NCBI GenBank assembly: GCA_018304505.1
Contig: JAGVWA010000012.1
Coordinates: 1 to 10,378, forward strand
Direction of reading: 5' to 3'
From: Nanobdellati archaeon
Lineage (GTDB): Archaea > B1Sed10-29 > JAGVWA01
Length of the DNA: 10,378 nucleotides
Shown here: piece after piece, positions 1-10,378 of the stretch
Position numbering within the stretch: position 1 is the first letter of the stretch
How the letters are laid out: every line of letters starts with the position of its first letter
The notes under the pieces: generated by a model
The model's input: only the letters and a program-made list of their open reading frames with translations
What the model was told of the DNA's origin: nothing
Database searches by the model: none
Position numbers and translations under genes: made by a program

Positions 1-1
1 C

Positions 2-103
2 GCCGCAATATACAAATACGAAGACCACGCCGGAGTACCCCCAGACGAAAAAAGAAACAACACCAAACGCGACGAAACAGAACTAGACATAATACTCGTA
101 TAA
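2..103 (+). CDS. C-terminal end of an unrecognised protein (5' end outside window)
   Basis: An open frame enters from the left edge and ends at TAA 101-103, giving 33 residues that start AAIYKYEDHAG and end in ELDIILV. The reading is acidic and lysine-rich with a hydrophobic last strand, as expected for the end of a soluble protein. The frame has no stop over its whole visible length. A fresh promoter follows 8 nt later, which supports a true gene end here. Too little is visible to name a family. Confidence 0.5.
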   Translation, partial: AAIYKYEDHAGVPPDEKRNNTKRDETELDIILV

Positions 104-319: not shown

Positions 320-414
320 TGGAAACTAATTATAACTAGAATATACAATCGATACACCAAACACAATCGAACTAACCAAAACCAACAAAACACGACAGGA
401 GTTGAGCGCACAAC

Positions 415-660
415 ATGTGGGACACAAACAGCTCGCGAGAAGCACTTAATACTGAAACTAACGAACCAAAACCAGTTGCACAAAACAACAACATCGGCAG
501 GCTTATTCCATTGAGGTATAGACACATCGTACAAAACCTTGATCTTCACGGACTAAGTATTGGTGCAAGCAATAGCATAGAGGTTGAGGGAATCAAACAG
601 CCAGAACCACCAACGCCAAATGCCCAGTTGCCGCAGTGGTTCCCCCCCAGAAAACAATAA
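415..660 (+). CDS. small Asn/Pro-rich protein, 81 aa, begins MWD
   Basis: An 81-residue frame from ATG 415 to TAA 658-660, not recognised. The N-terminal third is polar (Asn, Thr, Glu). The middle has a possible helix or strand (GRLIPLRYRHIVQNLDLHGL). The C-terminal third is Pro-rich (KQPEPPTPNAQLPQWFPP) and ends RKQ. The start is the only ATG near a ribosome-site-like GGAG (398-401), though the 13-nt spacing is long. If transcribed from the TATA at 312-319 it has a leader, unlike most genes here. Its beginning and tail resemble the 52-aa protein at 141. The copy of the leuS 3' end begins 20 nt after its stop. An overlapping minus-strand frame has no promoter and reads as a shadow. Confidence 0.45.
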   Translation: MWDTNSSREALNTETNEPKPVAQNNNIGRLIPLRYRHIVQNLDLHGLSIGASNSIEVEGIKQPEPPTPNAQLPQWFPPRKQ

Positions 661-679
661 CGAAAACAATAACCATACT

Positions 680-702
680 TTATCAAAATCGCTAGCTTCA
701 AC
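680..702. repeat. leuS 3'-end repeat, copy R1
   Basis: These 23 bp are identical to 1097-1119 and match 1627-1649 at 21 of 23 positions. The last site is the coding end of leuS. Read on the minus strand in the leuS frame the copy would encode LKLAILI, against LKPAILIS in leuS. The two positions that differ from leuS are the same in R1 and R2, so these copies are closer to each other than to leuS. Confidence 0.8.
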
Positions 703-726
703 AACAGCTCTTTTTATTGCATAACC

Positions 727-734
727 ATTATAAA
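727..734 (+). promoter_or_regulatory. TATA box of the first hicB
   Basis: ATTATAAA lies 31 nt before the ATG at 758. A matching 13-bp string, ATAACCATTATAA, sits at the same distance before the second hicB, so the two promoters are copies of each other. Confidence 0.65.
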
Positions 735-757
735 CCTCTACTTCGAAAGTAAGACAC

Positions 758-1039
758 ATGGCTAAAAAATTAAACATAATAGAATTACCTGTATTTACCT
801 ACAAAGACGGCAAGTACTACGTATCAGAAGTTCCATTCATACATGTTGCTAGCCAAGGCAAAACAATAGATGAATCGATAGCCAACGTAACGGAAGCAGT
901 AGAGCTCTACTTCGAGGGAGAAGACGTAGAGGAGATACTAAAAGAAAAAGTGCCATTAAAAAGCAACGTGTACACAAGCACCATAGCATTTGACAAAAAA
1001 ACAAAACACTTAGTCGCCACTAGTTCTATAACGAGCTGA
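758..1039 (+). CDS. hicB: HicB-family antitoxin, now without an intact toxin partner
   Basis: This 93-aa protein has the HicB partial RNase-H-like fold. An N-terminal strand is followed by YKDGKYYVSEVPFI (about residues 15-28), then the SQGKTIDESIANVTEAVELYFE helix (about 32-53), the usual HicB core. In the family this protein neutralises the HicA mRNA-cleaving toxin in the cytoplasm. The C-terminal region (54-93) shows no recognisable ribbon-helix-helix or helix-turn-helix domain. The start at 758 fits a leaderless mRNA from the TATA at 727-734. Directly downstream lies only a broken hicA beginning, so it is an orphan antitoxin. It differs strongly in sequence from the second HicB at 1167, although their promoters and upstream repeats match. 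Retention may reflect cross-neutralisation or recent decay; both are inference. Confidence 0.75.
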   Translation: MAKKLNIIELPVFTYKDGKYYVSEVPFIHVASQGKTIDESIANVTEAVELYFEGEDVEEILKEKVPLKSNVYTSTIAFDKKTKHLVATSSITS

Positions 1040-1045
1040 GCCAGA

Positions 1046-1090
1046 ATGACAAAAATACCGGTGCTCTGGAAGAATTTATTGACCTTCTCA
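1046..1090 (+). pseudogene. remnant of a hicA toxin gene (first 15 codons, frameshifted)
   Basis: Six bases after the first hicB, ATG 1046 opens MTKIPVL, a typical HicA N-terminus. After codon 7 the frame is lost: continuing in the +2 frame gives LEEFIDLLN, which resembles the next HicA stretch (helix with EFIDLL). This fits a small deletion where a Ser-Gly pair would normally stand. The similarity stops exactly where repeat copy R2 begins at 1091, and the rest of the toxin is absent. It is therefore a hicA gene truncated by the repeat-bounded event and also frameshifted. The call rests on the match to the family N-terminus and on position after hicB; the fragment is short. Confidence 0.6.
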
Positions 1091-1124
1091 ACTAGCTTAT
1101 CAAAATCGCTAGCTTCAACGGCAT
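1091..1124. repeat. leuS 3'-end repeat, copy R2
   Basis: This block matches 1621-1654 (end of leuS and just beyond) at all but two positions over at least 33 bp, and includes the complement of the leuS stop codon (CTA at 1092-1094). It lies between the broken hicA and the promoter of the second hicB. The core 1097-1119 is identical to copy R1. Confidence 0.85.
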
Positions 1125-1135
1125 ATTACATAACC

Positions 1136-1143
1136 ATTATAAA
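1136..1143 (+). promoter_or_regulatory. TATA box of the hicB-hicA operon
   Basis: ATTATAAA lies 31 nt before the ATG at 1167, the same octamer and spacing as in front of the first hicB. No leader is expected. Confidence 0.65.
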
Positions 1144-1166
1144 CTCCCACCCCGTAACTAAAATAC

Positions 1167-1388
1167 ATGACTAAAAAATACGAATTTACCGTTCTGATTG
1201 AAAAAGACGAAGACGGCTGGCTAGTCGGAAAAGTGCCGGATCTACAAGGCTGTGCGACGCAAGCAAAAACCATGAATGAATTGATGAAACGCGTAAGAGA
1301 AGCCATCCTAGCTTGTCTTGAAAGCGAAAAACAAGAGCCCCAGCACCTAGAATTAATCGGCGTGCAAAAATTAGAGATAAACGCATGA
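1167..1388 (+). CDS. hicB: HicB antitoxin of the intact HicAB pair
   Basis: This 73-aa protein has the compact HicB fold: EFTVLIEKDEDGWLVGKVPDLQGC (about residues 5-28), then the helix TQAKTMNELMKRVREAILACLE (about 31-52). The strand DEDGWLVGKVPDLQGC is the classic HicB signature. It ends soon after the core and has no separate DNA-binding domain, so autoregulation, if any, is not obvious. The stop overlaps the hicA start (ATGA at 1385-1388), so the pair is translationally coupled in antitoxin-toxin order. The start follows a TATA box at leaderless spacing. Confidence 0.85.
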   Translation: MTKKYEFTVLIEKDEDGWLVGKVPDLQGCATQAKTMNELMKRVREAILACLESEKQEPQHLELIGVQKLEINA

Positions 1389-1618
1389 CCCGCTTAACCC
1401 CTATTTCTGGAAAGAAACTCTCTAAAATTGTAGAACAGCTTGGTTTCAAACTAGTTCATCAAAAGGGTAGTCACAAACGTTACGTTCATGACGATGGAAG
1501 AAAAACCACAATCCCCACACATGGAAACGAAGAAATCGGCATCGGCTTATTGATTGAAATCCTCGGACAAATCAAGATACCAAGAGAAGAGTTTTTAAAA
1601 CTACTAAAGAAAAGGTAA
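1385..1618 (+). CDS. hicA: HicA mRNA interferase toxin (YcfA-like)
   Basis: This 77-aa protein has the double-stranded-RNA-binding-like fold of HicA: MTRLTPISGKKLSKIVEQLGF (1-21), then the core strand QKGSHKRYVH (26-35) with the catalytic His at about residue 30 in the G-S-H motif, then TTIPTHGNEEIGIGLLIEIL (41-60). A C-terminal helix ends LLKKR. Family members cleave mRNA in the cytoplasm and are held inactive by HicB. All family landmarks are present, so it is probably active. It overlaps hicB by four bases. Its stop at 1616-1618 is only 3 nt from the end of leuS on the other strand, where the repeat copy R3 begins. Confidence 0.85.
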   Translation: MTRLTPISGKKLSKIVEQLGFKLVHQKGSHKRYVHDDGRKTTIPTHGNEEIGIGLLIEILGQIKIPREEFLKLLKKR

Positions 1619-1620
1619 CT

Positions 1621-1654
1621 ACTAGCTTATCAAAATCGCGGGCTTCAACGGCAC
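1621..1654. repeat. native leuS 3' end, repeat copy R3
   Basis: This is the coding end of leuS (last codons LKPAILIS and the TAG) and the presumed source or target of copies R1 and R2. It starts 3 nt after the hicA stop, so the cassette R2-hicB-hicA abuts it with almost no spare sequence. Confidence 0.8.
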
Positions 1655-4462
1655 CGCGTTGCCCGCTTTTGCTTCTTTTGACCCAGAAGCTTTCATCACT
1701 TCAACCTCAGCGCCAAAGCGCTGCTTGAAGAAATCGCTAGCCTCCTTGATGGCATCAAACTCCTGCTGCTCAGAAGGCACGTCATCAAGCAGCTCTCCAG
1801 CGTGCTTTGATAAGTAACTCACATAAGTCACTGCCTGCTTTCCATGGGCTTTGACATCCTCTTGCTGCATCGCGTTCTTCAAGATGTTCTGTGGATGCTT
1901 CATCTGCGCAGCCATCCTATAAACAGTGCGTTTCCATTCCGGCGCAATGAAAATAGTTATGTTCGCCAGTTTGCCTAAGTTGGCGAGCTTCTGCACGTTT
2001 TCAATGTCACCCTGTAAACCAAGGAGCATCTGCTCATTCGCCTCGGCTGTTCCATCAATTTTTGTCTCGTCAGCCACTGGGTACGGTTGCTGTACAACAA
2101 AGCCCTTGTTGCCAAGCTGCTCCCATAGCTCCTCGCACGTGTGCGGAATTACGGGGTTTATCAACTTAACAAGCGTCTCGGCAGCCCACTTTGCCACCTC
2201 CTTGTTGTCGCCATTCCTGGTTTTGTACCACGCCAGGACCTTGAGGCCTTCGAACATGGCCTGATCAATCGCCTTCCGCAGCTCAAGCGAATTGAAGCTG
2301 ATTGTGGTGCTCTTTATTATTGTGTTTATCCTGGACTCGAGCCACGCGTCTATATGTTTTTTCTTGCTGCCTTTGACTTGCTTCATTTCCATTACCGCAT
2401 TGTAGAAGCGCTCTGCTTGGCTTTTGTAATTCATCACAGTATCATGAGCCCATTCAATGTCGCTAAACGGGCTGCCGACGTGCGCGTAAAACAAACGCAT
2501 TCCGTCAACGCTATACTCATCAGCAGGCGGAATCGCATTACTAAAGACGCCGCCTTTGCTCTTGCTTATTTTTTCTCCGCCGCCTTCTGTAACCCAGTAG
2601 TTGACGAAGATGCCTTGTGGCCAGTCGTTCTCAGGAAGAATGGCCGCGTGGTTCATGATGTAAACCGGAAAGTGCACTGTCTGGTGTTCCTTGCCGCCAA
2701 GGTTGATATCGACAGGATACCAGTACTCAAATTCCTTTTTGACTTGTTTCCAAGTTTCGTTTTTTGGTTTTCCTTTACCTAAAAAAACGTAGTCGAAGAA
2801 TTCCTCTGTCAAGTCATCGAGCTGCAGCTTGCCTGCGTTGAAGTACCTTGACACAACGTAAAAAGCAGGATACAGCGTGGAATCACTGATGGCCTCGATT
2901 GTCCAGCCCTTGTCGAATGGAAATGGGGTACCAACCCAATTGCCTCTGCGCGTAGCGCTTCTATATCCGAACCAGTCCAACACGCCTGGCAGGTTATCCT
3001 TGTAGCTTTGGGGGTAAATGTTCATTCTCTTGGCATGCTCCTTCGACTTTTCTTTCACTTCCGGGTTTTTGTAGTCGATCACCCACTGGTCGTTGATTTT
3101 CTTTACAACGACGCGTTCGCCACACCTGCAAACAACTGGCTCTGAAAAGTCCACAAACACGTCTGCTTTGCCTGCGCTGATTAGTTCTTGTTTTATCTTG
3201 TCTTTGGCTTCCATTACGCTCATGCCAGCGTATTTCCCAGAGTGCTTCGTCATGGTACCTGTGTGGAACCCTGCCTTATATACCTCTTTTTTCGCTTCTT
3301 CGAGTTTCGGGTCGTCCTGATTCTTTATTTTGAGGTCTCGGCATATTTTCACTGCAGCCATGTCGCCATAGCCTTTCACTTCCATAATTGGGATTACCTC
3401 TATTGATTTTATTTTCTCGTAGTCCAGGCCGTATTTTTCGCAATCGACCTTGGACTTCTGCAAGTCCACGAGACCCATGTAATCGATAGGCGCATCGCTT
3501 GGCACCGACGTCACTATGCCAGAGCCAATGCCAGGGTCACAGAATTTACTTGGCAGGATAATGATTTCCCGATCGACCCCTGGCGCCTTAGCGTACTGTC
3601 CAATCAAGTTCCCGCCTTTGATTTTCTGTATCACCTCAAGGTTGTCTTTCTGATACCTCAGTTTGGACAGAGCTTCTTGGCTTAGTATCCATTCTTCCCC
3701 ATCGACCTTGGCGAGCGCATACTCGACGTTTGGATCGATCCACAAGTTGGTTTGCCCGTACACGGTTTCTGGTCTGAGGGTGGCGGCTATAATATACCGG
3801 TTTGGTTTTTCAAATTCGAACTTCAGCAAGGTGTACTCGTTCTGTTGCGCATTACCTCCTTTGCTCAAGTCGGTTTCGCTTGGGTCTACAGCTACAGAGC
3901 CGTCCTTTGGGCAGTAGGCCTCGTACGACTCGATTTGTTTCAACATTCCCAAGTTTTTGAGTTTCCTGAACTGCCACTCGATGAACTTCTGGTACTGAGG
4001 GTATTGCGTGCAAACGATGGCGTCAAAGTCCGCCAATAAACCGAAGCGCTTGAATGTCTTCTGGTAATTTTCTGTGAAGTATTTCAAGACAACCATGATG
4101 TCCTTTTCGCCATCCTTCTTGAGTTGCTCTATCTGCTTTTCATTGAGGCCGTCGATCTTGAGGTTGTTGATTATGTCTTCCCGGCCTTCTTTTAGTTTGC
4201 GGAGCCATGTTGGCGCCACGTTTCCAGAGGCGTGAGTGCCTACTGGAAAAAAGATTGAGTGGCCTTGCATCCTTTTGAGGCGGCAGATCATGTCGCTGTA
4301 AGTAAACCCCCGCATGTGCCCGACGTGCTGATGACCAGAGACGCCAGGGTAAGCAAAGTGCAAGTAGAATTTTTTCTCCCCCGTTGGCCCTGACTTGAGT
4401 TCTGGGCTAGCATACCATCTTTCCTGCCATTTCTTCTCGATTTGTTTGTGATCAAATTTCAT
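1622..4462 (-). CDS. leuS: leucyl-tRNA synthetase, archaeal/eukaryotic type
   Basis: This 946-aa class Ia synthetase charges tRNA-Leu with leucine in the cytoplasm. The HIGH motif reads HVGH at residues 46-49 inside FAYPGVSGHQHVGHMRGF, the archaeal pattern, and the KMSKS loop is KISKS at 631-635. The editing domain lies between, at about 222-440: the Thr-rich ATLRPETVYGQTNLWI (226-241) and GSGIVTSVPSDAPIDY (313-328) with the acidic residues at 323 and 327. An anticodon-binding helical domain (about 680-830) and the archaeal C-terminal extension ending PLKPAILIS follow. Length is normal for archaeal LeuRS. The start has an unusually clear Shine-Dalgarno site for this window and a leader of about 30 nt. 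The 3' end is the sequence repeated at R1 and R2. Confidence 0.97.
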   Translation of the reverse strand: MKFDHKQIEKKWQERWYASPELKSGPTGEKKFYLHFAYPGVSGHQHVGHMRGFTYSDMICRLKRMQGHSIFFPVGTHASGNVAPTWLRKLKEGREDIINNLKIDGLNEKQIEQLKKDGEKDIMVVLKYFTENYQKTFKRFGLLADFDAIVCTQYPQYQKFIEWQFRKLKNLGMLKQIESYEAYCPKDGSVAVDPSETDLSKGGNAQQNEYTLLKFEFEKPNRYIIAATLRPETVYGQTNLWIDPNVEYALAKVDGEEWILSQEALSKLRYQKDNLEVIQKIKGGNLIGQYAKAPGVDREIIILPSKFCDPGIGSGIVTSVPSDAPIDYMGLVDLQKSKVDCEKYGLDYEKIKSIEVIPIMEVKGYGDMAAVKICRDLKIKNQDDPKLEEAKKEVYKAGFHTGTMTKHSGKYAGMSVMEAKDKIKQELISAGKADVFVDFSEPVVCRCGERVVVKKINDQWVIDYKNPEVKEKSKEHAKRMNIYPQSYKDNLPGVLDWFGYRSATRRGNWVGTPFPFDKGWTIEAISDSTLYPAFYVVSRYFNAGKLQLDDLTEEFFDYVFLGKGKPKNETWKQVKKEFEYWYPVDINLGGKEHQTVHFPVYIMNHAAILPENDWPQGIFVNYWVTEGGGEKISKSKGGVFSNAIPPADEYSVDGMRLFYAHVGSPFSDIEWAHDTVMNYKSQAERFYNAVMEMKQVKGSKKKHIDAWLESRINTIIKSTTISFNSLELRKAIDQAMFEGLKVLAWYKTRNGDNKEVAKWAAETLVKLINPVIPHTCEELWEQLGNKGFVVQQPYPVADETKIDGTAEANEQMLLGLQGDIENVQKLANLGKLANITIFIAPEWKRTVYRMAAQMKHPQNILKNAMQQEDVKAHGKQAVTYVSYLSKHAGELLDDVPSEQQEFDAIKEASDFFKQRFGAEVEVMKASGSKEAKAGNAVPLKPAILIS

Positions 4463-4469
4463 GAAAAAA

Positions 4470-4476
4470 TCACTCC
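4470..4476 (-). promoter_or_regulatory. Shine-Dalgarno site of leuS
   Basis: GGAGTGA on the minus strand, 7 nt before the ATG at 4462. It fixes the start, and shows that leuS has a leader, unlike most first genes here. Confidence 0.6.
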
Positions 4477-4513
4477 AGGTTATCCTTTCCTTGTTTTATT
4501 GACTTTTCTTGAG

Positions 4514-4521
4514 TATTTATA
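4514..4521 (-). promoter_or_regulatory. TATA box of leuS
   Basis: TATAAATA on the minus strand, preceded by TTAAAAAGC. It predicts a transcription start near 4490 and a leader of about 30 nt that contains the Shine-Dalgarno site. Confidence 0.55.
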
Positions 4522-4567
4522 GCTTTTTAACTCACGTCAGTTTAAACTCGCTCAGGTGGCAAAATCG

Positions 4568-4575
4568 TTAAATAT
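4568..4575 (+). promoter_or_regulatory. TATA box for the gene at 4599
   Basis: TTAAATAT lies 31 nt before the ATG at 4599, the same spacing as at both hicB promoters. It is the reason to prefer 4599 over the more upstream ATG at 4581. Confidence 0.5.
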
Positions 4576-4598
4576 ACTAGATGCTCTTAAATACATTG

Positions 4599-4850
4599 AT
4601 GACTATGGCGGATGATACATCTATTGACGCTGGCAAGGCTAGCAGCATAGCAAAACAATACTTGATCGACACGTACGGTAATCTTGGCCAGTTTACATTT
4701 AAAATACACTCGATCAAAAGAAATTCAGCTGAACACATCTGGATTGTTGAGTGCGAATCTTATGCGACCCCTAAGGATGAAAAACCAACAGCGTACACCA
4801 TAAAAGTAAACATCAAAACAGGTGAGATCGTGTCAATCTCATCTATCTAA
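4599..4850 (+). CDS. small PepSY-like hypothetical protein
   Basis: An 83-aa soluble protein when started at 4599 (MTMADD); ATGs at 4581 and 4605 are also in frame. A helix (DAGKASSIAKQYLIDTY, about 9-25) is followed by strands: FTFKIHSIKRN, HIWIVECESYA, AYTIKVNIKTGEIVSISSI. The pattern of a helix followed by W-x-V-E-C and then a strand-turn ending in KTGEIVSI resembles one PepSY-type repeat, a fold of secreted or peptidase-inhibitor modules. Here no signal peptide or membrane segment is visible, so it would act in the cytoplasm. Its exact role is unknown. It stands alone under its own promoter, divergent from leuS. Confidence 0.65.
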   Translation: MTMADDTSIDAGKASSIAKQYLIDTYGNLGQFTFKIHSIKRNSAEHIWIVECESYATPKDEKPTAYTIKVNIKTGEIVSISSI

Positions 4851-4889
4851 TATCATAATGACCCTAAGCCTTATCAGCAGCGCTATTAG

Positions 4890-5105
4890 GCAAGGCTGCT
4901 TGCTCGGGAGAAAATCCTATCTCACGACCTCTTTGAAGAACTAGGCGTTACAGATGTGGCCCTTCTAAATTGTTCTGAAGACAAAAAGTATTTTGTCATA
5001 ACAAAGGAACGGCAACTACTTGGACAGATGCGAGCAAGAAAAATGAACACCATCGGCATAGACACGCTAACTGCGTTTTATTACAGCTTGCCCGAGCATG
5101 CGTGA
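4890..5105 (+). pseudogene. remnant of a PIN-domain-like (VapC-type) protein, C-terminal half
   Basis: An open frame with no usable ATG near its beginning runs from just after the in-frame TAG at 4887 to TGA 5103-5105. It reads ARLLAREKILSHDL, then VTDVALLNCSEDKKYFVITKERQLLGQMRARKMNTIGIDTL. The order 'D-x-A-L-L...F-V-I-T-K-E-R-x-L...M-x-T-I-G-I' matches the C-terminal half of PIN nucleases, where an acidic residue after V-I-T is expected; here K-E stands for the usual N-D. The N-terminal half with the first catalytic Asp is missing. Only internal methionines or a GTG at 4956 could start it. It ends 1 nt before the stop of the convergent methyltransferase. A decayed toxin is the best reading; a short functional protein from GTG 4956 is possible. 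Confidence 0.45.
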
Positions 5106-5106
5106 T

Positions 5107-5577
5107 CTATAGCTTAACGAGCACGTAGAAGTCAAGCTCTGATTTACCAATGTAGCCTGACGAAGTTGCTTTTTCCGCCAGATACTTTAGCTGGCCGTCC
5201 ATTCGCACTGGCAATGAAACCACAACAACGCCCCCTGGGTTTGCGTACCGTTCCAGGTTTTTGTTTTTCAGCAAGTGATAAGCGTCGATGCAAATGATGA
5301 GGTCGAACTTTTCATCAGTTACGAAGTTATCTGTCACATGGTACTCAATGTTGGGCTTGCGCTTGCCGATTGCCTCATCAGAAACGTCAACACCTACGAT
5401 GCGCTTGATGCCGTGCTGCTTGAAATCCAAGAAGTCCTCGAACCAGGCCCTACCGATGCCGATGTCCAGCAATGACTTTTTGTCATGCATGTAGAACTCT
5501 AGCGTTTCCCACAAGTCTTCGTACTTTTCGAACTGCTTGGGCCGCCAGGATTCGTATATCTGGTTTGAGTACTCCAT
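5107..5577 (-). CDS. small class I SAM-dependent methyltransferase-like protein
   Basis: This 156-aa protein has the Rossmann methyltransferase core: motif I SLLDIGIGRAWFEDFL (about residues 35-50), motif II IVGVDVSDEAIGKRKP (60-75), motif IV DLIICIDAYHLL (92-103), and a late strand GGVVVVSLPVRM (114-125). Motif I deviates from the common D-x-G-x-G-x-G: the third glycine is replaced (DIGIGRA). It has no substrate-binding insertions, so the target is not predictable. The ATG at 5577 lies 28 nt from a TATA octamer that also fits the divergent gene at 5628, so both are probably leaderless. Confidence 0.75.
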   Translation of the reverse strand: MEYSNQIYESWRPKQFEKYEDLWETLEFYMHDKKSLLDIGIGRAWFEDFLDFKQHGIKRIVGVDVSDEAIGKRKPNIEYHVTDNFVTDEKFDLIICIDAYHLLKNKNLERYANPGGVVVVSLPVRMDGQLKYLAEKATSSGYIGKSELDFYVLVKL

Positions 5578-5597
5578 ATACGAATTTTGACGAATGC

Positions 5598-9068: not shown

Positions 9069-9344
9069 TCACTTCAATGATTTTCCTTTTTGCCACAAGC
9101 CTTTTTCGAAGTAGCCTATGTCTGCTTCTACAAGGGCCTTGTCAGTTATATTAATAGCGGCTCGGGTTTTGTCTGATTCAGCTCCCTTTATCGCCTTGCC
9201 CGATTGTAGGTTATCTTGTATCACAAATGAAATTGGGATATCCTTAGGATATACTACGCGAACCTCTACATTCTCATTGTTAAATAAGGTTTTCCATGTT
9301 TTTGTAGTTGGTTTGTAGTTTAGGAGGTTAATGTCGTCCGGCAT
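9069..9344 (-). CDS. small soluble hypothetical protein, 91 aa
   Basis: A 91-aa protein, not recognised. The sequence alternates strands (KTWKTLFNNENVEVRVVYP, ISFVIQDNLQSGKAI) with a helix-like acidic tail (ITDKALVEADIGYFEKGLWQ). No membrane segment, signal or cysteine. It heads a two-gene unit with the membrane protein at 8818-9063. The start at 9344 is the first Met after an upstream in-frame stop, but no TATA box lies at the usual 28-31 nt: the best candidate (TAAAAATA near 9356) is only about 14 nt away. The promoter is therefore unclear, and the head-to-head gene at 9363 has the same problem. Confidence 0.55.
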   Translation of the reverse strand: MPDDINLLNYKPTTKTWKTLFNNENVEVRVVYPKDIPISFVIQDNLQSGKAIKGAESDKTRAAINITDKALVEADIGYFEKGLWQKGKSLK

Positions 9345-9362
9345 TATTAACTTTATTTTTAT

Positions 9363-9596
9363 GTGGGGCTAGGAACCTACGATGACATAATTATACAAAC
9401 CCGTTTGCCAGAACAGATAATCAGAGACATGGAAAAACTCTATAGTAACATAAAACAAGTTGAAGATTTAAACTTCGAAGATTTAATGAAGATAGCTACT
9501 AAAAACGTTCAATTTAGGGTTACTGTAATGAAAAATCCCCAATTAGCAAGACAGAACCAAGACTCTGTAATACAGACATTCAAAAAAGCGCGATGA
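9363..9596 (+). CDS. small hypothetical protein, 77 aa, GTG start
   Basis: A 77-aa helical protein (GTYDDIIIQTRLPEQIIRDMEKLYSN then LNFEDLMKIATKN), Lys/Gln-rich at the end, with no family recognised. The only initiators are GTG 9363 or the internal ATG at 9429 (55 aa). The stretch TYDDIIIQTRLPEQIIRD before 9429 looks protein-like, so GTG is preferred. No TATA box stands 28-31 nt upstream. It stands head-to-head with the gene at 9344 over only 18 bp, so a shared or non-standard promoter, or a wrong start for one of them, must be considered. TGA 9594-9596 ends it. Confidence 0.45.
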   Translation: MGLGTYDDIIIQTRLPEQIIRDMEKLYSNIKQVEDLNFEDLMKIATKNVQFRVTVMKNPQLARQNQDSVIQTFKKAR

Positions 9597-9623
9597 TCAC
9601 CAACAGCAATCCCCCCGCAAGTT

Positions 9624-9633
9624 CTTATATACT
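9624..9633 (+). promoter_or_regulatory. TATA box of a short transcription unit
   Basis: CTTATATACT is a good TATA element with no long gene after it. It predicts a transcript starting near 9653-9657, covering the sequence just before and possibly through the tandem repeats. Confidence 0.5.
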
Positions 9634-9653
9634 AAAACAGCATCTATAGTGCT

Positions 9654-9792
9654 GCGATGACGTCACCAGGCTTGCCAGAACCTCTCTGAGGTGATGATGA
9701 AGATCATGAGTGCAGAGCAGCTTATCTGCTTACAGATAGGCGCAGCTTATCTGCTTACAGATAGGCGCAGCTTATCTGCTTACAGATAGGCG
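9654..9792 (+). ncRNA. candidate short RNA or leader with three hairpin repeats
   Basis: The predicted transcript begins at GCGATGA, a near match to a C box. CTGA (9686-9689) and GTGATGA (9691-9697) would be D' and C' boxes of a C/D RNA, but the first spacer (25 nt) is too long and no final D box is clear. The alternative is a short leader: a leaderless ATG 9657 reads MTSPGLPEPL then TGA (9687-9689). That stop overlaps a GAGGTGAT site followed by ATGs, as at the operon junctions at 6689 and 9063. A 31-codon frame (9694-9789) then runs through the repeats. Three 25-nt hairpins form the 3' part. Neither reading is established. Confidence 0.25.
9718..9792 (+). repeat. three tandem copies of a 25-bp hairpin unit
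   Basis: Units 9718-9742, 9743-9767 and 9768-9792 are identical, followed by a 4-nt partial copy (CAGC, 9793-9796). Each forms a stem CTTATCTG / CAGATAGG around the loop CTTA. There are no spacers, so it is not a CRISPR array. The first 14 bp of the same unit reappear at 10365-10378, right after relE. Confidence 0.9.
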
Positions 9793-9810
9793 CAGCAATT
9801 TTAACTTATA

Positions 9811-9820
9811 GTTTGCAAAC
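9811..9820. promoter_or_regulatory. palindrome next to the relBE TATA, possible operator
   Basis: GTTTGCAAAC is a perfect 10-bp palindrome directly before ATTTATATAG (9821-9830), the best TATA box for relB. The position suits binding by the RelB or RelBE repressor; no direct evidence. A second weaker TATA (TTGTATAA, 9835-9842) fits a leaderless start at 9861. Confidence 0.4.
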
Positions 9821-9860
9821 ATTTATATAGTTTATTGTATAATAAATCTATAGTGATTCT

Positions 9861-10109
9861 ATGGTATCTTATACAAGCATACAAATCTTGCCTGAAACAA
9901 GAGAAGAATTAAGTCATTTGAAATCAAGCCCTCGGGAGACTTATGACGAGTTAATCAAAAAATTGATTGAATTGATTCCAGAAGGAGACGAAGAAGGCAC
10001 TTACAAAGATGAATTTAAAGTTGGCCTTTTGAACGCAAAACTCGATGCCATAAAAGGAAGAACCTATTCGCTTTCAGACGTAAAAAAATCCCTAGGACTG
10101 AATAAATGA
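9861..10109 (+). CDS. relB: RelB-like antitoxin
   Basis: An 82-aa protein with the layout of small archaeal RelE-partner antitoxins. The N-terminal strand-helix part SYTSIQILPETREELSHLK (3-21) could form a ribbon-helix-helix, with the helix ETYDELIKKLIELIP (27-41). An acidic linker (EGDEEGTYKDEF) and a C-terminal toxin-wrapping region (LDAIKGRTYSLSDVKKSLGL, 61-80) follow. It binds and blocks RelE and probably represses its own operon. Its stop overlaps the relE start (ATGA at 10106-10109), so the two are coupled. The ATG at 9861 is the only good start and follows a TATA and a palindrome. Confidence 0.75.
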   Translation: MVSYTSIQILPETREELSHLKSSPRETYDELIKKLIELIPEGDEEGTYKDEFKVGLLNAKLDAIKGRTYSLSDVKKSLGLNK

Positions 10110-10360
10110 CCTGGAAGATTGAGTTTACAAAAGAAGCACTTAGAGACATCTCAAAACTTGAAACAAAGATTCTCGACAGGATACTAGACAAACTTGAACA
10201 GACAAGAGAGAACCCACATCATTATTTTCAACGCTTGGTGGGCCACGATGATTTCAAATTCAGGGTGGGCGATTATAGGATACTAGTGCTCTTATTGCAT
10301 GACGAGAAAATAATAATACAAAAAGTAGGACACCGAAAAAACGTTTACAAACGTCTCTAA
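10106..10360 (+). CDS. relE: RelE-family mRNA interferase toxin
   Basis: An 84-aa protein of the RelE/ParE fold: MTWKIEFTKEALRDISKLETKILDRILDKLEQTRENP (1-37), then LVGHDDFKFRVGDYRILVLL (44-63) and the last strand IIIQKVGHRKNVYKRL (69-84). K-F-R-V-G-D-Y-R-I and G-H-R-K-N-V-Y are the family signatures and carry the basic and aromatic residues used for ribosome-dependent mRNA cleavage in archaeal RelE. Nothing is missing. It is coupled to relB. Its stop (10358-10360) is followed within 5 nt by the next copy of the 25-bp hairpin repeat. Confidence 0.85.
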   Translation: MTWKIEFTKEALRDISKLETKILDRILDKLEQTRENPHHYFQRLVGHDDFKFRVGDYRILVLLLHDEKIIIQKVGHRKNVYKRL

Positions 10361-10364
10361 GCAG

Positions 10365-10378
10365 CAGCTTATCTGCTT
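10365..10378 (+). repeat. start of a fourth copy of the 25-bp hairpin unit (cut by window end)
   Basis: These 14 bp (CAGCTTATCTGCTT) are identical to the first 14 bp of the units at 9718, 9743 and 9768. The copy runs into the window edge, so the number of units downstream is unknown. It places relBE between two runs of the same repeat. Confidence 0.8.

Follow-up and report, generated by a model that had tools for sequence, protein, structure and literature searches.

In Helicobacter, restriction-modification genes have been found to insert with a long target duplication (Nobusato 2000 and Furuta 2010, as cited in the parts of PMC3874152 and PMC3031569 that treat such insertions). According to the same parts of these two papers, duplications of ~100 bp were inferred by genome comparison, and the direct repeats permit tandem amplification by unequal crossing-over. 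A MaOC1-linked ParDE module of Microcystis aeruginosa is flanked by two identical 152-bp direct repeats, which contain a shorter internal inverted repeat and adjoin the stop codon of a gene (PMC7935541). Integron gene cassettes have been reported for Archaea too (PMC9668308, in the part concerned with their occurrence), and archaeal integrated elements of multi-kilobase size, which encode their own integrase, are located at tRNA genes and bounded by direct repeats, one of which overlaps the tRNA gene (PMC4158269).

The DNA analysed here (the window) is the entire contig C2 (10,378 bp) of a 21-contig, 917-kb archaeal genome bin that is 92.8% complete. The window contains a relB-like antitoxin gene of the DUF7557 family (9861-10109, + strand; 82 aa; Pfam PF24434, E = 4.9e-6) followed by a relE/parE-family toxin gene (10106-10360, + strand; 84 aa; Pfam PF05016, E = 6.2e-10). 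The relE family profile matches the solved RelE structures 2khe, 4fxe, 1wmi, and others, and the GDYR and GHRK positions are conserved in the toxin. By the family of the toxin and the presence of a small antitoxin gene upstream, relBE is predicted to be a type II toxin-antitoxin (TA) pair of the RelE/ParE family; NCBIfam yielded no match above cut-offs. The two genes overlap by 4 nt and are probably co-transcribed, and equivalents of the DUF7557 antitoxin precede relE, in the same gene order, in loci L062-L066. A likely relBE promoter region (9811-9829, + strand), recognized from the archaeal promoter layout, consists of a palindrome (GTTTGCAAAC, 9811-9820) and a TATA-like box (TTTATATA, 9822-9829) and is located 3′ of the hairpin array described below. 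The closest relatives of this RelE are found in archaea such as Diapherotrites and Micrarchaeota, and one distant RelE match was obtained in viral contigs.

The relBE operon is flanked on both sides by copies of the same hairpin repeat. The left direct repeat (9717-9796, + strand) comprises three perfect 25-bp hairpin units plus 5 nt, for which Tandem Repeats Finder reported 3.2 copies of GCAGCTTATCTGCTTACAGATAGGC with a 100% match. The right direct repeat (AGCAGCTTATCTGCTT; 10363-10378, + strand) starts 2 nt past the relE stop codon and consists of the first 16 nt of a further unit, with a 16/16 match to 9716-9731; because the window is a complete contig, the remainder of this copy is cut off by the contig end. 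A 16-nt match inside the 18 nt remaining after relE is far beyond chance. Only relB and relE, and no transposase, are present between the repeats. These results agree with an earlier note on this DNA, which had described three perfect tandem units before relBE and a fourth beginning after relE; the 14 bp starting 5 nt after relE that it gave for the latter reflects a different choice of phase for the same 16-nt copy. The CTTA loop described there was also found by RNA folding, but the stem, which had been given as 8 bp, is 9 bp long (GCTTATCTG/CAGATAGGC) and includes one G-U pair. The three units can, in addition, be folded jointly into one long hairpin (-42.8 kcal/mol).

When up to 3 mismatches were allowed, three full copies of the 25-bp unit were detected in the 917-kb bin, every one of them at the relBE locus, and the wider occurrence in other intergenic regions that the earlier note had set against its own reading was not seen in the bin. 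No match to the unit was found in 60 other genomes, none to its 20-nt core in GTDB genome contigs or IMG/VR, and no credible Rfam family over positions 9300-10378. Since the unit is absent elsewhere, it is not a dispersed repeat, and an element of the REP or MITE type was rejected. A CRISPR array was rejected as well, the units abutting at a 25-bp period with no spacers, and an integron and a transposon were likewise rejected for relBE by the features tested. A second tandem hairpin mini-array, with a 23-bp unit (TGCATTAGTAATGCACAAAAGCT), is present at C1:17108-17168 (L006), between two tRNA-synthetase-like genes and with no TA gene nearby; this array is unrelated to that at relBE, which indicates that hairpin arrays occur independently in this genome.

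Tandem hicB-type cassettes, i.e. a lone hicB-like gene followed by hicBA, are located at 674-1653 of the same window and are separated by three copies of the 3′ end of the leucyl-tRNA synthetase (LeuRS) gene. The source copy (1621-1653, - strand), which comprises the last 10 codons and the stop codon of LeuRS, and a second copy (1091-1123, - strand), which matches it at 31/33 positions and forms the left boundary, enclose the genes for the HicB antitoxin (1167-1388, + strand; Pfam PF15919, E = 1.8e-7) and the HicA toxin (1385-1618, + strand; Pfam PF07927, E = 1.3e-16). The hicB-like gene (758-1039, + strand; weak PF15919 match, E = 0.011) lies between the second copy and a third (674-706, - strand), which is more diverged and older. 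The promoter regions of hicB and the hicB-like gene are 80% alike. The parallel that the earlier note had drawn between relBE and the repeat-bounded hicBA locus is therefore apt, and the hicBA repeats are copies of the LeuRS gene 3′ end. The relatives compared, 15 in all, are of the same order or class at closest; each of them has one copy of the LeuRS 3′ end and lacks hicBA after LeuRS. The duplication is thus lineage-specific, and the possibility that the LeuRS 3′ end is a conserved attachment site was rejected because no duplicate is present in the 15 relatives.

Bracketing by direct repeats is strongly enriched at TA loci across this genome. In total, 19 family-defined loci (6 RelE, 6 HicA, and 7 PIN) were analysed by an ungapped search with a bracketing repeat score of at least 16, and 10 of them were bracketed, compared with 12 of 943 control positions sampled in the same genome (p = 3e-13) and 2 of 140 small ORFs (p = 2.6e-9), gene type being matched in the small-ORF set only, and there in part. 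One of the two bracketed small ORFs is itself a TA-like pair. The relBE operon of the window scores 16 in this test. Bracketing repeats are lacking at roughly half of the TA loci, among them both hicBA loci of C12 and 6 of the 7 PIN genes, and the repeat at the relBE locus of C13, which may represent only a shared promoter motif, was given little weight. The repeat sequence is different at each locus, so that it is the arrangement and not the sequence that is general; repeat length varies between 16 and 118 bp, and no end sequence shared by the loci was apparent, so that a single enzyme is not indicated.

A gene-blind scan of 447 kb of the 917-kb bin identified additional bracketed loci, namely an MNT-HEPN pair and AbiE in C16, an AAA_14/DUF4143 ATPase in C9, and an MqsA-like gene in C5; the other strong repeat pairs in the scanned region were mainly coding repeats or paralogues. 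At several loci, one copy of the repeat is the 3′ end of the adjoining gene, and the other is found on the far side of the TA operon. The genes concerned are LeuRS, two genes of C16, for which the repeat extends exactly to the stop codon, and a PIN gene of C5, for which it is 118 bp long with one mismatch. A further array was found at C3:122148-124150 (L117 822-2824), where four direct repeats are interspersed with three TA-like operons and the last repeat corresponds to the 3′ end of a tRNA-like sequence (Rfam score 28.1, just under the gathering score of 29). The C5 PIN gene, which adjoins the relBE locus of C5, looks broken: the 118-bp piece of its 3′ end is present on each side of that relBE (C5:34649-34766 and C5:35352-35469; L106 17769-17886 and 18472-18589), and the continuations differ. 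Near the TA promoters and the boundaries of repeats in C5, C10, C3, C4, and C16, palindromes of the GGTTTAAACC type are found repeatedly.

The same arrangement was observed in other genomes. In relatives from the same class, bracketing was seen at 6 of 42 TA loci, compared with none of 92 control positions (p = 7e-4). RelE homologues from GTDB contigs, mostly of other DPANN archaea, were tightly bracketed, i.e. with one repeat immediately 5′ of the antitoxin gene and another immediately 3′ of the toxin gene, at 12 of 78 loci, compared with 4 of 1892 control positions (p = 1e-14); a few of the 78 loci are mutually related, which leaves the picture unchanged. Pairs of these loci reveal transfer units that end at the repeats. 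L227 and L229 are 97.8% identical across the repeat-relBE-repeat segment only, and the sequences outside are unlike except for further repeat copies; L219 and L225 are 85% identical, again across the repeat-relBE-repeat unit only. In L229, from a Micrarchaeota bin, four cassettes (relBE, AAA_14/DUF4143, AbiE, and AAA_14/DUF4143) are placed between five 49-bp repeats (384-5586), the last of which is formed by the 3′ end of a host gene. In L227, the relBE cassette of L229 adjoins a different ATPase.

These results suggest that TA gene pairs move and stack as repeat-bounded cassettes without a recombinase of their own. On balance, relBE in the window is rather likely to be one case of this general pattern, i.e. 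a minimal TA cassette that was inserted with target duplication and that later took part in recombination between the repeats. The cassette, which would consist of the antitoxin, the toxin, and their promoter and carry no recombinase, would have been inserted next to or within hairpin sequence and would have left at least 16 bp of target sequence copied on either side of relBE. In the general pattern, small TA and ATPase/AbiE operons would come to lie between locus-specific direct repeats copied from the adjoining gene, often from its 3′ end, and the host gene would stay intact because the repeat is copied from the end of the gene. Homologous recombination between the repeats could then mediate precise excision, swapping between strains, and the stacking of further cassettes, and the addictive toxin would select against loss of the cassette. 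The gene-end origin of the repeats, together with the single LeuRS 3′ end in the 15 relatives, points to target duplication on insertion. The repeats, their enrichment at TA loci, the gene-end origin at several loci, the arrays, and the transfer units of other genomes are observed; what we infer is that relBE in the window has the same history, how the initial insertion proceeded chemically, and that recombination drove the later steps. The hairpin probably represents target sequence; most simply, the threefold array pre-existed the insertion, and it may have expanded by slippage. The three identical units may plausibly have been expanded recently. The view of the earlier note that relBE is a mobile cassette is thus supported through other loci (10/19 versus 12/943, and the two genome pairs sharing a repeat-relBE-repeat unit), and not by the relBE locus alone.

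Insertion at gene 3′ ends might instead be catalysed in trans by a recombinase of a plasmid or virus, the repeats being attachment sites as in the elements at tRNA genes. Such an enzyme would be expected to produce repeats that are gene 3′ ends, as at several loci including the tRNA-like one, and to let cassettes accrete in tandem at a single site, as in the L229 and C3 arrays. One recombinase specificity, however, would hardly serve all of the loci, because the repeat sequences differ between them. No recombinase gene was found within the cassettes examined, and the bin (92.8% complete) contains no match to the tyrosine integrase domain (Phage_integrase, PF00589) or to the serine recombinase domain (Resolvase). 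We therefore consider a recombinase in trans unlikely.

There is also a small chance that relBE has never moved and that an ordinary intergenic mini-satellite happens to flank it, the downstream copy having arisen by local duplication. Short tandem arrays are not unusual here, and the mini-array at C1:17108 demonstrates that hairpin units can be arrayed where TA genes are lacking. The unit at relBE, however, is confined to this locus and flanks the operon on either side in the same orientation, and the strong enrichment of direct repeats at TA loci also argues against a coincidence.

The position of the right repeat at a contig end raises the question of whether the terminal 16 nt were wrongly extended into the upstream repeat during assembly. 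Many contigs in this assembly have ~99 bp in common at their ends, as expected with an assembler k of 99, whereas C2 stops inside the repeat, and comparison of its 3′ end with all other contig ends revealed no overlap in common and no join to another contig. The bases preceding the two copies differ, however (AAGCAGCAG downstream and AGAGCAG upstream), so that the downstream copy did not arise by the assembly simply looping back into the array, and comparable brackets are found in the interior of long contigs. An artefact of this kind is very improbable. The contig end was also considered as a presence/absence polymorphism, which was rejected because, at k = 99, a simple polymorphism would not be expected to break the contig 16 nt inside the repeat. 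Other contig ends showed further peculiarities. C2 and C14 start with the same 103 bp (window 1-103 and L103 1-103), which are 99% identical, correspond to a gene 3′ end, and are followed by divergent sequences; these 103 bp represent either a further duplicated gene end or a strain variant. The start of C7 (L020 1-100) carries a long near-perfect inverted repeat with arms of ~27 bp, and several TA loci in relatives, like relBE here, are separated from a contig end by no more than a few tens of bases.

A regulatory role of the hairpins, either as antitoxin operators upstream or as terminators that would provide the insulation proposed in the earlier note, is scarcely credible: the hairpins are stable in RNA folding and the array ends ~25 bp before the TATA-like box, but the array precedes the promoter and would thus be missing from the relBE transcript, the hairpin is not followed by a T-run, the downstream copy cannot serve as an operator of the relBE promoter, the repeats around other TA loci have different, unrelated sequences and in many cases are coding gene ends, and searches of other genomes, including those with related relBE loci, did not detect the hairpin.

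How solitary chromosomal TA operons move without a recognisable mobility gene is an old question. The genome-wide signature described here, i.e. locus-specific repeats derived from adjoining gene ends, transfer units whose ends coincide exactly with the repeats, and arrays composed of different cassettes, makes an answer based on recombination testable by sequence comparison. As a tentative generalization, which we hold to be possible but doubtful, DPANN and other archaea may harbour a mobile class free of recombinases, in which TA, AbiE, and AAA_14/DUF4143 operons take the end of a host gene as portable homology, spread, swap, and stack at gene 3′ ends via the homologous recombination of the host, and are kept by toxin addiction. 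If true, this would explain why many different TA modules are kept in streamlined DPANN genomes without detectable integrases.

In the open-access literature, outside of which most subscription journals lie, no description of this bracketing pattern for archaeal TA operons was found, and the closest precedents are restriction-modification genes and one cyanobacterial TA locus, none of which concerns archaeal TA operons. Unlike the elements integrated at tRNA genes, the cassettes described here are ~0.4-1.5 kb in size and carry only TA or ATPase genes. Arrays such as those in L229 and C3 resemble integrons, as these are presented in the part of PMC9668308 cited above, in that small cassettes, often TA, alternate with repeats, but differ in that no integrase family match is present in the genome and in that the repeats are locus-specific copies of host sequence and not one family of recombination sites. 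In the Microcystis ParDE module, as at relBE, a TA pair of the ParE family is fenced by direct repeats with an inverted repeat inside; that module, however, represents one cyanobacterial locus, where each side has a single long repeat, whereas here the hairpin units are short and three in number and the pattern is genome-wide. The restriction-modification insertions, as portrayed in the cited parts of the two papers, share with the present cassettes an addiction-type gene pair, the lack of a transposase, and long target duplications of variable length. Inserts bounded by direct target copies of variable length were likewise observed here at the LeuRS, C16, and C5 gene ends, the right copy at relBE being truncated by the contig end. 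The present cassettes differ from these insertions in that they are archaeal TA operons, that the duplications are 16-118 bp long and often correspond to gene 3′ ends, and that different cassettes are assembled into arrays.
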